DNA of 64,000 nt from an uncultured Alistipes sp. (GTDB lineage Bacteria; Bacteroidota; Bacteroidia; Bacteroidales; Rikenellaceae): assembly GCA_900546065.1 (NCBI GenBank), contig URBK01000006.1:66716-130715 (forward strand), in the 5' to 3' direction. Positions 26,095-31,139 of the stretch are shown one piece after another; position 1 is the first letter of the stretch, and each line of letters begins with the position of its first letter. A program made the translations under genes and the position numbers. The notes under the pieces were generated by a model. The model searched no databases, was not told the DNA's origin, and saw only the letters and a program-made list of their open reading frames with translations.

Positions 26095-26739
26095 ATGAAA
26101 AGACTATTGATGATTACGGCATTCACGGCCTTCGCCGCCGCAGGATGCGACGCCCAGCAGACCCCGTCGGGCGACGCCGCAGCTCCGCAGAAGAATCAGG
26201 TCATAGAGACCATCATGGCACGCCGCAGCATCCGTGCCTACAAACCCGAACCCGTCCCGCACGATATACTCGACCAGATACTCGAGTGCGGCATCAACGC
26301 CCCCAACGGCATGAACGCCCAGCAATGGGAGGTGCGCGTGGTAGACTCGAAAGAGTGGCTAGACAATGCCACCGCCGCGTACAAGAAGACCGTCGCCGGA
26401 ACTCCGGCCGAGAAGTCGGTAGCCGACCCCTCGTTCGTCAACATGTTCCGCAACGCCCCAACCGTCATCTTCATCGCCCACAAGCCCGGAGGCTGCACAC
26501 AGGTCGACTGCGGACTTATGGCCGGCAACATGGTCACGGCGGCACAATCGCTCGGCATAGGCTCGGTCTGCATGATGGGCCCGCTCGGATTCTTCTCCAC
26601 GCCCGAAGGCAAGCCGTTCCTCGAATCGCTGCAACTGAGTGAGGGATACGAACTTCTACTCTGTATAGGCATGGGATATGCCAACGAACAGCCTGCCGCA
26701 AAGCCCCGAAACCGCGACGTTATTAAATATATTAAGTAA
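26095..26739 (+). CDS. Nitroreductase-family lipoprotein (214 aa)
   Basis: The ATG at 26095 gives a lipoprotein signal (MKRLLMITAFTAFAAAGCDAQ, lipobox AAGC); the frame upstream runs through the promoters and is rejected. The domain is a nitroreductase fold: ETIMARRSIRAYKPEPVPHDILDQILECGINAPNGMNAQQWEVRVV holds the FMN-binding Arg-Arg-Ser, and the C-terminal part has AAQSLGIGSVCMMGPLGF and LLLCIGMGYA. Such enzymes reduce nitro compounds, quinones or flavins with NAD(P)H; an exported lipid-anchored form is less usual because cytosolic cofactor would be absent. Two identical promoters precede it. Confidence 0.85.
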   Translation: MKRLLMITAFTAFAAAGCDAQQTPSGDAAAPQKNQVIETIMARRSIRAYKPEPVPHDILDQILECGINAPNGMNAQQWEVRVVDSKEWLDNATAAYKKTVAGTPAEKSVADPSFVNMFRNAPTVIFIAHKPGGCTQVDCGLMAGNMVTAAQSLGIGSVCMMGPLGFFSTPEGKPFLESLQLSEGYELLLCIGMGYANEQPAAKPRNRDVIKYIK

Positions 26740-26766
26740 ATACCCGCATATTTATGCGCCCGAAAT

Positions 26767-26797
26767 TTTGAATTCTCCGCAAATAGCGATATATTTG
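26767..26797 (+). promoter_or_regulatory. Promoter of the aromatic amino acid operon
   Basis: TTTG (26767-26770), a 19-base spacer and TATATTTG (26790-26797). Transcription would start near 26804, about 36 bases before the leader peptide. Confidence 0.75.
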
Positions 26798-26839
26798 TCG
26801 TCGAATAAAAGGTTCCACAAATTACGAGCGAAAACGGAT

Positions 26840-26905
26840 ATGAATTCTTTCTTTTATAAGCGATTTTATCACTACCGTGTGAACGGTCAGGAGGTCGCGT
26901 GTTAA
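26840..26905 (+). CDS. Phe/Tyr-rich leader peptide of the pheA operon (21 aa)
   Basis: ATG at 26840, TAA at 26903. The peptide begins MNSFFYKRFYHYR and carries three Phe and three Tyr within residues 4-12 out of 21. The codons run TTC TTT TAT ... TTT TAT CAC TAC. It lies between the operon promoter and an attenuator, directly upstream of genes that make phenylalanine and tyrosine. This is the arrangement of PheL-type leaders: the ribosome stalls when charged tRNA-Phe or tRNA-Tyr is scarce. Its 3' end (26885-26892) also encodes the antiterminator arm, so translation and folding are coupled. Confidence 0.8.
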   Translation: MNSFFYKRFYHYRVNGQEVAC

Positions 26906-26970
26906 AAAAGAAGAGTTTATGAACGATGATATTGATCCTGACCTGTGCGAACAAGGTCAGGATTTTTTTT
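26874..26970 (+). promoter_or_regulatory. pheA: Transcription attenuator upstream of pheA
   Basis: Four pairing segments are visible. Segments 1-2: ACCGT/ACGGT hairpin (26874-26887). Segment 2: GGTCAGGA (26885-26892). Segment 3: TCCTGACC (26936-26943). Segment 4: GGTCAGGA (26955-26962). Segments 3-4 form a 9-bp terminator stem (ATCCTGACC/GGTCAGGAT) followed by eight T; segments 2-3 pair over 8 bp as the antiterminator. A ribosome stalled at residues 9-12 of the leader peptide would cover segment 1 and free segment 2; one that reaches the stop codon would cover segment 2 and let the terminator form. Confidence 0.85.
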
Positions 26971-26983
26971 AACGCAATTTTTT

Positions 26984-27793
26984 ATGCTGAAAGTAGCCAT
27001 ACAGGGATACGAGGGTTGTTTCCACCAGATCGCGGCCAATAAATATTTCGGCCGCCAGATAGAGATCCTGCCGAACAACACCTTCCGAGGCGTGGCCGCC
27101 GCCGTCAAGAACGGTACGGCCGATATGGGCGTCATGGCCATCGAGAACTCTATCGCCGGATCGATCATCGCAAACTACAGCATCCTGCAAGATGCGAACC
27201 TGCAGGTCGCTGGCGAAGTCTACCTGCCCGTGATGCAGAACCTCATGGCCCTGCCCGGAGTATCGATGGACGACATCCGCGAGGTGGAATCACATCCCAT
27301 GGCCCTGCTGCAGTGTGTCGATTTCCTCGACCGCCATCCGTGGAAGCTCATCGAAAGCGAGGACACGGCTCTCAGTGCCCGACACATCGCCGAAAAGGGT
27401 CTGCGCCACACCGCCGCCATAGCCAGCGAGTTGGCCGCCGAGATGTTCGGGCTGCAGATCCTCGCCCCCGAGATAAATACAATAAAGAGCAACTATACGC
27501 GTTTTATGATCCTCAAGCGGCACGACCACAACATCGACCCCCATGCCAACAAGGCGTCGCTCTACTTCAAGACCGACCACCGCGAAGGGTCGCTGCTGCG
27601 GGCGCTGAGCCAGCTCAACGGCATAAACCTCTCGAAGTTGCAGTCGTACCCCATACCGAGCGAACCGTGGCACTACCTCTTCCACATAGACCTCGAGTTC
27701 CGCTGTCTGGACGACTACATCTCGAATCTCGACCGTCTGCAGCAAGCAACCGAAGAGGTACACGTGTACGGGGTCTACCGCAGCGGCAAATAG
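26984..27793 (+). CDS. pheA: Prephenate dehydratase with ACT domain (269 aa)
   Basis: The ATG at 26984 follows the attenuator by 14 bases. The first 180 residues are the dehydratase: VAIQGYEGCFHQIAANKYF, GTADMGVMAIENSIAGSIIANY, and SNYTRFMIL with the catalytic Thr-Arg-Phe. The last 75 residues are an ACT domain (SLYFKTDHREGSLLRALSQLNGINLSKLQSYPI), the site of phenylalanine feedback in this family. The enzyme converts prephenate to phenylpyruvate. No chorismate mutase is fused here; that activity is carried by the fourth gene of the operon. Control is therefore expected at two levels: attenuation and allosteric inhibition. Confidence 0.95.
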   Translation: MLKVAIQGYEGCFHQIAANKYFGRQIEILPNNTFRGVAAAVKNGTADMGVMAIENSIAGSIIANYSILQDANLQVAGEVYLPVMQNLMALPGVSMDDIREVESHPMALLQCVDFLDRHPWKLIESEDTALSARHIAEKGLRHTAAIASELAAEMFGLQILAPEINTIKSNYTRFMILKRHDHNIDPHANKASLYFKTDHREGSLLRALSQLNGINLSKLQSYPIPSEPWHYLFHIDLEFRCLDDYISNLDRLQQATEEVHVYGVYRSGK

Positions 27794-27958: not shown

Positions 27959-29137
27959 ATGGCAAAGGTTGAAATTGCTCCCTCGCACAGAATGGACTGC
28001 ATCAAGGAGTATTACTTCTCAAAGAAGAACCGCGAAATCGCCGAGCTGCGCAAGGCCGGCCGCGACATCATAAGCCTCGGCATCGGCAGCCCCGACATGC
28101 CGCCCCACAAGAGCGTCATCGACCGTCTGGGCAAGGAGGCGCAGCGTCCCGACGTACACGCATACCAGCCCTACAACGGCAGCGACCTGCTGCGTCAGGC
28201 ATACGCCGACTGGTATGATAAGTGGTACGGCGTAACGCTCAACCCCAAGAACGAGGTTCTGCCCCTGCTGGGATCGAAGGAGGGTATCATGCACATCTGC
28301 ATGGCATTCCTCAACGCCGGAGATCAGGTTCTGGTGCCCAACCCGGGATATCCTACATACCGTGCCGCCGTCACCCTTTCGGGAGGTGAGGTCGTGGATT
28401 ACAAGCTCAAGGCCGAGAACGGTTTCCTGCCCGACTTCGACGAGTTGGAGAAGATGGATCTGAGCCGCGTGAAGCTCATGTTCGCCAACTATCCCAACAT
28501 GCCGACCGGTACACACCCCACCAAGGAGCTCTTCGAGAAGCTGGTCGACTTCGCCGGACGCCACAACATCCTGCTCGTACACGACAACCCCTACAGCTTC
28601 GTGCGCAACAACCTCCGTCTGAGCATCCTCGCCATACCGGGCGCCAAGGACGTCGCCCTTGAGATGAACTCTACCAGCAAGGGCCACAGCATGGCCGGCT
28701 GGCGTGTGGGTGTGGTAGTCGGCCGCGCCGACCTGCTGAGCGACATCCTGCGTTTCAAGAGCAACATGGACTCGGGTATGTTCTATCCCGTACAGGCTGC
28801 CGCAGCCGAGGCCCTCTCGCTGGGAGAGGATTGGTTTGAGGCCCTCAACAAGGTATACTACGCACGTGAGGCAAAGGGTTACGAACTGCTCGACGCGCTG
28901 GGATGCAAGTACCAGAAGGGACAGGCCGGACTCTTCATCTGGGCCGAGATCCCCGACTGGTTCGACGGCGACTGCTTCGCCTTCTCGGACAAGATCCTCG
29001 ACGAGTGCGACGTCTTCGCTACGCCGGGCGGCATCTTCGGCAGCGAGGGCAACCACTTCATCCGCATATCGCTCTGTATGCCTGAGGAGCGTCTGGCCGA
29101 GGCCGCACAGCGCGTCAAGACCCGTCTGAAGAGATAA
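27959..29137 (+). CDS. Class I/II PLP aminotransferase, probably aromatic (392 aa)
   Basis: This is a fold-type I aminotransferase. DIISLGIGSPDMPPHKSVID lies at the N-terminus, VPNPGYPTYRAAVTLSGGEV in the cofactor domain, and the PLP lysine in EMNSTSKGHSMAGWRVGVVVG (about residue 240). The family includes LL-diaminopimelate and aromatic aminotransferases. Its place between prephenate dehydratase and prephenate dehydrogenase argues that it transaminates phenylpyruvate and hydroxyphenylpyruvate to phenylalanine and tyrosine. A 165-base gap separates it from pheA; I see no terminator or promoter there. Confidence 0.9.
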   Translation: MAKVEIAPSHRMDCIKEYYFSKKNREIAELRKAGRDIISLGIGSPDMPPHKSVIDRLGKEAQRPDVHAYQPYNGSDLLRQAYADWYDKWYGVTLNPKNEVLPLLGSKEGIMHICMAFLNAGDQVLVPNPGYPTYRAAVTLSGGEVVDYKLKAENGFLPDFDELEKMDLSRVKLMFANYPNMPTGTHPTKELFEKLVDFAGRHNILLVHDNPYSFVRNNLRLSILAIPGAKDVALEMNSTSKGHSMAGWRVGVVVGRADLLSDILRFKSNMDSGMFYPVQAAAAEALSLGEDWFEALNKVYYAREAKGYELLDALGCKYQKGQAGLFIWAEIPDWFDGDCFAFSDKILDECDVFATPGGIFGSEGNHFIRISLCMPEERLAEAAQRVKTRLKR

Positions 29138-29150
29138 GACATCGCAAGCG

Positions 29151-29993
29151 ATGAAGACCACCGTCATAGGTTTGGGCCTTATCGGAGGATCGTTTGCCCT
29201 GAGTCTCAAGGACAAGGGACTGAGTGACCATATCATGGGCATCGAGCGCTCGGAAGCGAGCGCCCGACGCGCCCTTGAATTGGGGCTCGTGGACGAAATG
29301 GTCGATCTGGATCAGGCACTCGAGAAGAGTGACCTCATCGTGTTGGCCACGCCCGTGGACACCATACCCACTCTTGCGCTCAAGATCCTCAACCGCATAC
29401 GCCATGACCAGATAGTCATGGATATGGGTTCCATCAAGCAGGAGCTGTGCGAGATGACCATGATGCACCCCAATCGCGGGCGTCTGGTCGCCACGCACCC
29501 AATGTGGGGTACCGAGAACAGCGGTCCCGACGCCGCACAACACGGCGGATTCGCCGGTCGCACGGTCGTTATATGCGAACGCGAGCGTTCGGACGATGAC
29601 GCCGCCGCCGCGGTCGAGAAGATCTACCGCACGCTGGGTATGCCCATACGCTACATGTCGGCCGAGGAGCAGGACATGCACTGCGCCTACGTGTCGCATA
29701 TCTCGCACATCACATCCTTCGCACTGGCGCTGACCGTGCTGGAGAAGGAGCGCGAGGAGGAGCACATATTCGACCTTGCGGGTGGCGGTTTCGAGAGCAC
29801 GGTGCGTCTGGCCAAGAGTCTGCCGCAGACGTGGGCCCCGATATTTCTGGGCAACAAGTACAACATACTGGACGTGTTGCGCGAGCATATCCACCAGCTG
29901 CAGATCATGCGTCGCATGATCGAACGCGACGACCGCGAGGGACTCATCGAGATGATGCACCGGGCCAACAAGATAAGGAACATACTCAAATAA
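29151..29993 (+). CDS. tyrA: Prephenate dehydrogenase (280 aa)
   Basis: The N-terminal Rossmann motif GLGLIGGSFALSLKDKGL binds NAD(P). GTENSGPDAAQHGGFAGRTVVI and CAYVSHISHITSFALALTV carry the substrate region and the conserved histidine pair of TyrA, and the C-terminal helical dimer domain has AGGGFESTVRLAKSLPQTWAPIFLGN. It oxidatively decarboxylates prephenate to hydroxyphenylpyruvate for tyrosine. There is no ACT or chorismate mutase fusion. The gene starts 13 bases after the aminotransferase and ends 18 before the DAHP synthase gene, consistent with a single operon. Confidence 0.94.
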   Translation: MKTTVIGLGLIGGSFALSLKDKGLSDHIMGIERSEASARRALELGLVDEMVDLDQALEKSDLIVLATPVDTIPTLALKILNRIRHDQIVMDMGSIKQELCEMTMMHPNRGRLVATHPMWGTENSGPDAAQHGGFAGRTVVICERERSDDDAAAAVEKIYRTLGMPIRYMSAEEQDMHCAYVSHISHITSFALALTVLEKEREEEHIFDLAGGGFESTVRLAKSLPQTWAPIFLGNKYNILDVLREHIHQLQIMRRMIERDDREGLIEMMHRANKIRNILK

Positions 29994-30011: not shown

Positions 30012-31085
30012 ATGGGAAAATTCGTACTCGGGGCCAAACGGCCCCTCATCATAGCGGGGCCGTGCAGCGCCGAAACCCGTGAACAGACCGTCGAGACGGC
30101 CATGCAGCTGGCCCGTTCGGGACGTGTGGACGTCATACGCGCCGGCGTATGGAAACCCCGCACGCAGCCCGGCACCTTCGAGGGTGTGGGCGAGCCGGCA
30201 CTCGAATGGCTCAACGAGGTCAAGGCGGCAACGGGTCTGCCCATAGCCGTCGAGGTAGCCAACCGCGCTCACGTCGAGTGCGCCCTGCGCCACGGTGTGG
30301 ACCTGTTGTGGATAGGCGCCCGCACCACCGTCTCGCCCTTCGCCGTACAGGAGATCGCCGAGAGCCTGCGCGGCAACAAGGATGTGGCCGTGCTCATAAA
30401 GAACCCCATGGTGCCTGACATCAACCTCTGGGCCGGCGCCGTCAACCGTCTCATCAAAGAGGGCATCCCCGCCGAGAACATAGGACTCATACACCGCGGA
30501 TTCTCATATTTCGGCCGCAGCAAATACCGCAACCCGCCGATGTGGCACATGATCTTCGAGATGCGCAGCCGCTTCCCCGACATGATGATGATATGCGACC
30601 CGTCGCACATTTGCGGCTGTCGCCCCCTGCTCTACGGCATCTCGCAGCAGGCGGCCGACCTCTGCTATGACGGTCTCATAATCGAGAGCCACATCAACCC
30701 CGACAAGGCATGGAGCGACGCCTCGCAGCAACTCACGCCGCAGGATTGCATCACGATGCTCGATAATGTGATGTGGCGCGCCAAGACGGCCAACGACCCC
30801 GAATATACGAGTGAATTGAACGTCTGCCGCCAGCAGATCGACCAGATCGACGCCGAGCTGTTCGAGCTTCTGTGCGAGCGCATGAAGACCAGCGAGAAGA
30901 TCGGCCGCATAAAGAAGGCCAACAACGTGGCCATCCTCCAGAGCAACCGCTGGGAGGATATCTGCCGCCGCATGCTCTCGCTCACGCGCGGCATGGGCCT
31001 GAGCGAGGACTTCGTACGCACGGTGCTCGAGGCCATACATATCGAGAGCATCAACCACCAGAACGAGGTGATGAACAAACAGTAA
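30012..31085 (+). CDS. Bifunctional DAHP synthase/chorismate mutase type II (357 aa)
   Basis: Residues 1-260 are a KDO8P-synthase-like DAHP synthase: PLIIAGPCSAETREQTVETA, DVIRAGVWKPRTQPGTFEGVG, DLLWIGARTTVSPFAVQEIAE, VLIKNPMVPDINLWAGAVNRL, and MICDPSHICG. From about residue 262 a type II chorismate mutase domain follows (LNVCRQQIDQIDAELFELLCERMKTSEKIGRIKKANNVAIL). One protein thus supplies the first shikimate step and chorismate to prephenate, feeding the two prephenate enzymes encoded upstream. It is the last gene before a strong terminator. Fusion of the mutase here may allow feedback by prephenate on DAHP formation, as reported for other such fusions. Confidence 0.94.
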   Translation: MGKFVLGAKRPLIIAGPCSAETREQTVETAMQLARSGRVDVIRAGVWKPRTQPGTFEGVGEPALEWLNEVKAATGLPIAVEVANRAHVECALRHGVDLLWIGARTTVSPFAVQEIAESLRGNKDVAVLIKNPMVPDINLWAGAVNRLIKEGIPAENIGLIHRGFSYFGRSKYRNPPMWHMIFEMRSRFPDMMMICDPSHICGCRPLLYGISQQAADLCYDGLIIESHINPDKAWSDASQQLTPQDCITMLDNVMWRAKTANDPEYTSELNVCRQQIDQIDAELFELLCERMKTSEKIGRIKKANNVAILQSNRWEDICRRMLSLTRGMGLSEDFVRTVLEAIHIESINHQNEVMNKQ

Positions 31086-31107
31086 GCCTTCGAGACGCAT
31101 ACTTCGG

Positions 31108-31139
31108 GGAGTCTGCCACAAGTGGCAGACTCCTTTTTT
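31108..31139 (+). terminator. Terminator of the aromatic amino acid operon
   Basis: GGAGTCTGCCAC and GTGGCAGACTCC (12 bp, perfect) with a 2-base centre are followed by six T, 22 bases past the stop at 31085. Confidence 0.92.

Follow-up and report, generated by a model that had tools for sequence, protein, structure and literature searches.

Introduction

Among described systems, the regulator analysed here most resembles pheL-pheA of Escherichia coli, in which a leader ORF holding a cluster of cognate codons is followed by a terminator ahead of pheA. The E. coli leader is rich in Phe codons and has no Tyr, and tyrA-aroF is a separate, oppositely oriented unit; control by Phe and Tyr is shared in that species between pheL and the TyrR repressor. 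Leaders that carry codons for several products of one operon are known from ilvGMEDA and thrABC of enterobacteria, where the same multi-codon logic applies to amino acids other than Phe and Tyr.

For the Bacteroidota, the accessible text of a study of Flavobacterium psychrophilum reports signs that leader peptides attenuate operons for amino acids, as well as a structured element 5' of pheA in Flavobacteriaceae that is conserved in other genera and has no Rfam match (PMC9723704). This element stands before the same gene, in the same phylum, as the leader described below, and very probably belongs to the same family; the accessible parts of that report contain no pheA codon analysis, no dual Phe/Tyr reading and no claim outside Flavobacteriaceae. 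According to the available portions of two other papers, Bacteroides thetaiotaomicron has short, leader-peptide-like ORFs in long 5' UTRs (PMC7366714), and Bacteroidia ribosomes fail to recognize Shine-Dalgarno sequences (PMC9976891). The Bacteroid-trp motif (RF01692), presented as a cis-regulatory candidate of Bacteroidetes in the part of its report available to us (PMC2864571), comes from the same phylum, is linked to trp by name alone, and was unmatched at gathering threshold in the DNA studied here. A 2010 survey states, in its accessible sections, that Proteobacteria and Actinobacteria were the only groups with demonstrated ribosome-mediated attenuation until the survey's own Firmicutes case (PMC2965389). 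Our literature search, which mostly did not extend to subscription journals, recognised no description of a mixed Phe/Tyr leader. A comparative paper by Lopatovskaya and others from 2010 may cover Bacteroidetes.

Here we describe a leader region ahead of the pheA operon of an uncultured Alistipes sp. The regulator is of a known kind, and is a variant of it by its dual input, by leader codons that go with the gene content of the operon, and by an often missing protector hairpin.

Results

Layout of the leader region and the downstream operon

The stretch of DNA that was analysed, 64,000 nucleotides in all, is referred to as the window. Its leader region and operon comprise the following features, all on the forward strand.

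26767–26797, forward: promoter of the Bacteroidota type, TTTG (-33), N19, TATATTTG (-7), from sequence reading
26840–26905, forward: leader peptide ORF, MNSFFYKRFYHYRVNGQEVAC, 21 codons plus TAA, kept in the 19-row alignment A1
26849–26875, forward: regulatory codons, Phe 4, 5 and 9 and Tyr 6, 10 and 12, from stall folding
26874–26887, forward: 1:2 protector hairpin, ACCG(N6)CGGT, 4 bp, predicted pairing
26885–26892, forward: segment 2, the antiterminator 5' arm GGTCAGGA, within the leader ORF, from sequence reading and folding
26936–26943, forward: segment 3, TCCTGACC, common to antiterminator and terminator, from folding and alignment A1
26934–26970, forward: intrinsic terminator, -18.2 kcal/mol, found by script, 96.7% of cells paired in A1
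26984–27793, forward: pheA, prephenate dehydratase, from prephenate dehydratase models (E 7.2e-59, under curated cut-offs)
27959–29137, forward: aminotransferase, best models LL-diaminopimelate aminotransferases, under cut-off
29151–29993, forward: tyrA, prephenate dehydrogenase, NF006307, 334.5 bits (cut-off 295)
30012–31085, forward: DAHP synthase (DAHPS)/chorismate mutase fusion, from profile models, all under cut-off
31106–31135, forward: operon-end terminator, 13-bp stem and T tail, from hairpin reading

The preliminary description had listed most parts of this region, and each was found at the position claimed, among them a 21-residue peptide with three Phe and three Tyr in residues 4–12; an antiterminator arm that is an exact copy of the terminator 3' arm (26885–26892 is identical to 26955–26962); and a terminator with eight T ahead of the pheA start (ATG at 26984). 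The terminator consists of a stem at 26934–26964, in which segment 4 (GGTCAGGA) occupies 26955–26962, followed by the T run at 26963–26970. The predicted fold of RNA 26838–26984 lies 5.1 standard deviations below that of dinucleotide shuffles.

The promoter was also present at the place claimed and is of the Bacteroidota type. TTTG at 26767–26770 and TATATTTG at 26790–26797, separated by 19 bases, fit the sigma-ABfr consensus of Bacteroidota (TTTG / TAnnTTTG, as given in the accessible text of PMC7366714) and not the full sigma-70 consensus, to which the window promoter has 9/12 matches. Of 108 leader loci, 78 have TAnnTTTG in the 130 nt that precede the codon cluster (8.9% of mononucleotide shuffles), and 38 have it together with TTTG at N18–20 (0.14% of such shuffles).

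Among the four operon genes, tyrA alone exceeds a curated cut-off. The position of the aminotransferase gene suggests that its product acts in Phe/Tyr synthesis. DAHPS models cover residues ~4–255 of the fusion, and chorismate mutase models cover residues ~262–356.

The leader recurs ahead of pheA in many Bacteroidia

Loci were scored for an ORF upstream of pheA in which Phe and Tyr make up 6 or more of 12 residues. A contig scan with the window's PheA gave 49 loci, of which the first 48 were taken and 47 had at least 200 nt upstream. Such an ORF was found at 45 of these 47, compared to 3.6% of 940 dinucleotide shuffles. In a sample of 60 Bacteroidales genomes, 28 had a PheA match, and 27 of the 28 loci with upstream sequence carried the ORF, compared to 6.6% of 560 shuffles. 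The Phe/Tyr richness that the preliminary description proposed to look for in relatives is kept. Overall, 3.5% of 4280 shuffled upstream regions contained a Phe/Tyr-rich ORF. Two named strains, Zobellia uliginosa DSM 2061 (L041) and Pricia antarctica DSM 23421 (L047), carry the leader. Three loci (L012, L049 and L110) were dropped for want of upstream room.

In a sample of the class, the ORF was present at 11/19 loci, including 10 of 17 with the operon-type arrangement (7/17 without); the PheA match figure of 21/80 is not a count of absence, as the protein query probably misses distant PheA. A phylum sample taken around a Zobellia genome comprised 148 genomes, 128 of them with a prephenate dehydratase match (129 matches). 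The 120 loci analysed exclude five genomes already present in other sets (G003, G006, G025, G053 and G076), the matches of G057, G100 and G141, and the second match of G034. The Phe/Tyr-rich ORF occurred at 26/29 of these loci where pheA lies in an aminotransferase/TyrA/DAHPS operon, and at 3/91 others, which were judged to be chance and have no terminator. Most of the 120 loci represent distant PheA lineages without the leader.

A terminator was located by script between ORF and pheA in 108 of 113 cases (the window and 112 loci), and two more (L016 and L115) were recognised by eye. The ORFs at L154, L164 and L199 were rejected as leaders, as they look like chance and lack a terminator. It should be noted that L001/L094 and L082/L123 come from the same genomes, so that the 113, and likewise the 114 leaders compared below, include both members of each pair.

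The preliminary description took the locus for a clear Bacteroidota case. It is not an isolated one, given its recurrence in many Bacteroidia and the earlier notes on Flavobacteriaceae in the accessible text of PMC9723704. We conclude that the attenuator is real and very probably functional, and a member of a family present in many Bacteroidia. This would extend ribosome-mediated attenuation to a regulator found in many members of that class.

At two loci, from Tidjanibacter and a Tidjanibacter-like genome (L026 and L027), the pheA operon is present and no Phe/Tyr leader was seen within 360–420 nt. This may reflect loss or another form of control.

Leader codons track operon content

Both Phe and Tyr are present in 106 of the 108 leaders with a script-found terminator, and among close relatives (alignment A1) the two residues interchange at codons 5, 6, 11 and 12. 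In three leaders (L109, L115 and L117) the cluster consists of Phe only; the 9-kb stretches around these loci contain neither an aminotransferase nor a tyrA or DAHPS gene next to pheA.

We compared the leaders of pheA genes with such partners to those of solitary pheA genes, excluding L025 and L122, whose neighbours are hidden by contig ends and whose leaders have Tyr. Tyr is present in the best 8-residue window of 114/114 leaders of partnered pheA, whereas, of the 12 Phe-rich leaders that precede a solitary pheA, 11 have none there; nine of the twelve come from one family and hence are not independent. The twelfth (L257) has a Tyr just past the Phe run, and a few other solitary-pheA leaders have single Tyr codons further off. 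The twelve include L280 and L281, whose terminators were missed by the script and recognised by eye. In the G169 family, all 16 partnered loci have Phe+Tyr leaders and the one solitary pheA has a Phe-only leader; nine of these 16 entered the comparison, the other seven leaders being identical to those entered. As three different families are involved, the codon change probably arose more than once.

Some solitary pheA genes (L261–L264 and L282–L287) were not counted as leader-bearing. At L263 the script ORF had a count of 5 and no terminator followed. At L282–L287, which are six of eight loci in the G179 family, script ORFs reached up to 6 with Trp counted and were judged to be chance readings. 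L261 has a terminator and no Phe run in its leader ORF, and is perhaps a decayed sensor. In G179, a terminator-like hairpin comes after the reading SVFAYFYYYFYF in the aminotransferase-DAHPS region.

Separate tyrA genes can have leaders of their own. Among the 13 genomes of the G189 family in which 195 nt or more precede tyrA, 12 have an aromatic leader and a terminator before this gene; L269, with 195 nt, is the exception. The tyrA loci with a Phe/Tyr leader and terminator are L265–L268, L270–L274, L276–L278 and L229, several of them with a Trp codon. Since Phe outnumbers Tyr in the best window of 7/12 tyrA leaders, and L270 has no Tyr there, the match between codons and gene is loose for tyrA.

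For pheA, the tracking of operon content by codon content (Tyr in 114/114 partnered leaders, no Tyr in 11/12 solitary ones) supports the earlier proposal that one leader senses both Phe and Tyr for a joint operon. Leader codons that change with operon content are unusually direct comparative evidence of what a leader senses. Phe and Tyr would enter through one leader here; E. coli splits this input between pheL and TyrR.

Antiterminator, terminator and protector hairpin

The antiterminator pairs segment 2 with segment 3, which is also the 5' arm of the terminator, so the two structures are mutually exclusive; in the window the antiterminator helix is GGTCAGGA:TCCTGACC. At 75 of 107 loci, segment 2 matches the complement of segment 3 exactly over 6 nt or more, compared to 5.0% of shuffles, and the remaining 32/107 had no such match. 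Measured from the first base of the final Phe/Tyr codon, segment 2 starts at a median of 12 nt (9–20, n = 75), in a search that itself began 6 nt from that base. E. coli pheL is similar in this respect, with a distance of 11 nt between the first base of its final Phe codon and the antiterminator segment. The two differ relative to the stop codon: the E. coli segment starts 2 nt past the stop, whereas here segment 2 is within the ORF at 63/75 loci, at a median of 9 nt before the stop.

The preliminary description had named compensatory changes among segments 2, 3 and 4 as a check, and the outcome was mixed. Between lineages, segment 2 varies with the match kept (GGTCAGGA, GACCGGGA, AGCGGGA, CGAGGCTTT and AAGGTGAGGC). 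Within A1, which holds 19 rows of the Alistipes-type group, the antiterminator is 100% paired and 6/8 of the segment 2:3 pairs are invariant, so that no antiterminator covariation was found. The terminator is paired at 96.7% in A1, where two of its pairs have changed on both sides, as many as in 73/500 shuffles or fewer; its covariation score was reached by 1/500. These alignments suggest that the terminator covaries a little, and weakly, within the Alistipes-type group. The protector hairpin showed no covariation in A1, where 96.1% of its cells are paired and 3/4 pairs are invariant.

The 1:2 hairpin noted earlier does exist at 26874–26887, with 4 bp, but the four-segment picture built on it appears not to be a rule for the family. 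A protector effect was predicted for 19 of 107 loci, by equilibrium folds that deserve little trust for single loci. In the same kind of fold, mean segment-3 uptake without a ribosome is 0.65 over the 107 loci. The window, one of the 19, has a value of 0.23, versus 0.73, with the 4-bp hairpin plus a longer pairing; its close relative L001 has no predicted protector effect and a value of 0.85. These values differ from that of E. coli pheL, for which placing the ribosome at codon 1 gives a segment-3 uptake of 0.00.

A predicted switch at the last Phe/Tyr codon

For each codon, a stalled ribosome was placed on the leader and the RNA beyond it was folded; the leading edge was set 12 nt from the start of the A-site codon, and the transcript ended before segment 4. 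Three loci were excluded from this analysis: L125, where the distance from stop to terminator exceeds 65 nt, and L016 and L115, where the script had missed the terminator. For the window, the predicted probability of the GGTCAGGA:TCCTGACC helix is 0.85–0.98 with stalls at codons 1–12 and 0 from codon 13; the last regulatory codon, Tyr12, is at this simulated edge. Over 107 loci, mean segment-3 uptake is 0.77 and 0.76 at three and two codons before the last Phe/Tyr codon and 0.65 at it, then 0.47, 0.29 and 0.20 at the three codons that follow. A control with shuffled spacers (mononucleotide shuffles, two copies per locus) gave 0.47 at -3, 0.46 at -2, 0.43 at +3 and 0.37 at +8 codons. The same simulation of E. 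coli pheL has the same switch point, with values of 0.84 and 0.64 at Thr13 and Phe14 and 0.06 at Pro15.

At 81/107 loci the half-maximum edge falls in the interval from one codon before to three codons after the last Phe/Tyr codon; it is later at the other 26, which include the window. There, weaker alternative pairings persist and keep generic segment-3 uptake above half until nine codons past the last Phe/Tyr codon, and the sharp edge is shown by the specific helix alone. In these predicted folds, then, a stalled ribosome frees the antiterminator and a ribosome at the stop codon blocks it. Full-length RNA at equilibrium always prefers the terminator, a preference that would allow kinetic control and is not proof of it.

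Proposed mechanism and alternative explanations

Ribosome-mediated transcription attenuation that senses Phe-tRNA and Tyr-tRNA is, on the sequence evidence, very probably the best explanation of these data (probability about 0.93). The preliminary description had read the region this way, and the reading is supported by the recurrence of leader, antiterminator and terminator and by a predicted switch at the last Phe/Tyr codon. The support obtained comprises the parts themselves, their conservation, the fit between codon run and ribosome footprint in folding, and leader codons that match operon content; from these we infer stalling, termination and the response to Phe and Tyr themselves.

RNA polymerase would start at the TAnnTTTG promoter, with a ribosome trailing on the leader ORF. 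When charged tRNA-Phe or tRNA-Tyr is scarce, the ribosome would stall with a Phe or Tyr codon in its A site and its leading edge just short of segment 2. Segments 2 and 3 could then pair, which would block the terminator and allow the pheA-aminotransferase-tyrA-DAHPS/CM operon to be transcribed. With both charged tRNAs ample, the ribosome would reach the stop codon and cover segment 2; segments 3 and 4 would pair, and transcription would end near 26970.

The TnaC peptide arrests its own ribosome in response to Trp, and the leader peptide might likewise stall its ribosome on free Phe or Tyr and not through a shortage of charged tRNA. Such nascent-peptide arrest would agree with the good conservation of the peptide in the Alistipes-type group, including its C-terminal NGQ(D/E)V(V/A)C. 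However, the conserved C-terminal part overlaps the nucleotides of segment 2, the wider set keeps mainly Phe/Tyr richness, and Phe and Tyr swap at codons 5, 6, 11 and 12. The logic would also be inverted, with excess amino acid causing the stall and hence read-through, and we consider arrest very improbable.

Slightly less probable again is a T-box, a riboswitch or a protein-bound RNA attenuator in which the ORF is incidental. A terminator and an antiterminator do exist and the fold has a z of -5.1, but no Rfam leader was matched, and what is conserved is the codon run and its footprint distance. At gathering threshold over the whole window, the sole Rfam match was a tRNA elsewhere, with no T-box or leader family; at relaxed threshold over 26700–27050, there was one chance-level match only. 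We give equally little credence to the terminator being the 3' end of the upstream nitroreductase-like gene, with the Phe/Tyr ORF arising by chance or encoding a small functional protein. That gene stops at 26739 on the same strand. A promoter-like element nevertheless lies between it and the ORF; the ORF, repeat and terminator recur before pheA in many genomes; and leader codons track the content of the pheA operon, all of which argue against this alternative.

Wider reading and additional observations

A broader reading, which we hold tentatively and at somewhat less than even odds, is that Bacteroidia have an old family of aromatic attenuators with an exchangeable Phe:Tyr sensor, mostly without a protector, and with coupled ribosome and polymerase. 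As part of this tentative reading, the codon mix would be Phe+Tyr where the operon is joint, Phe alone where pheA is solitary, and Phe+Tyr+Trp for some tyrA-DAHPS operons. If it is true, an untranslated leader would read through by default in most members, those without a protector, unlike in E. coli. It would also imply close coupling of ribosome and RNA polymerase in a phylum in which ribosomes do not make use of Shine-Dalgarno pairing. Since a phased attenuator needs a ribosome close behind the polymerase, these leaders can report transcription-translation coupling in Bacteroidota.

Near hisG, His-rich leader ORFs (e.g. MIRFNHIHHHHILRKVR) with a terminator-like hairpin were seen in 4 of 6 genomes (L224, L225, L226 and L227). 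Attenuation in these genomes may not be limited to aromatic amino acids.

Two further observations concern other pheA loci. A conserved stretch around TATGATAATAGATTTATTTTCTTTAAA lies ~40–80 nt upstream of pheA at L071, L085, L086, L205, L213 and others, in a distant PheA lineage with 32–37% identity to the window's PheA. It can be read as ...YDNRFIFFK; this was rejected as a second leader, the stretch being one of conserved DNA. At nine loci (L143, L162, L173, L176, L181, L182, L186, L193 and L221), PheA lies in an open frame of ~670–740 codons that has no leader of at least 6 Phe/Tyr. A DAHPS-like match occurs ~1.3 kb past the PheA start at these loci, which possibly encode a PheA-DAHPS fusion protein.
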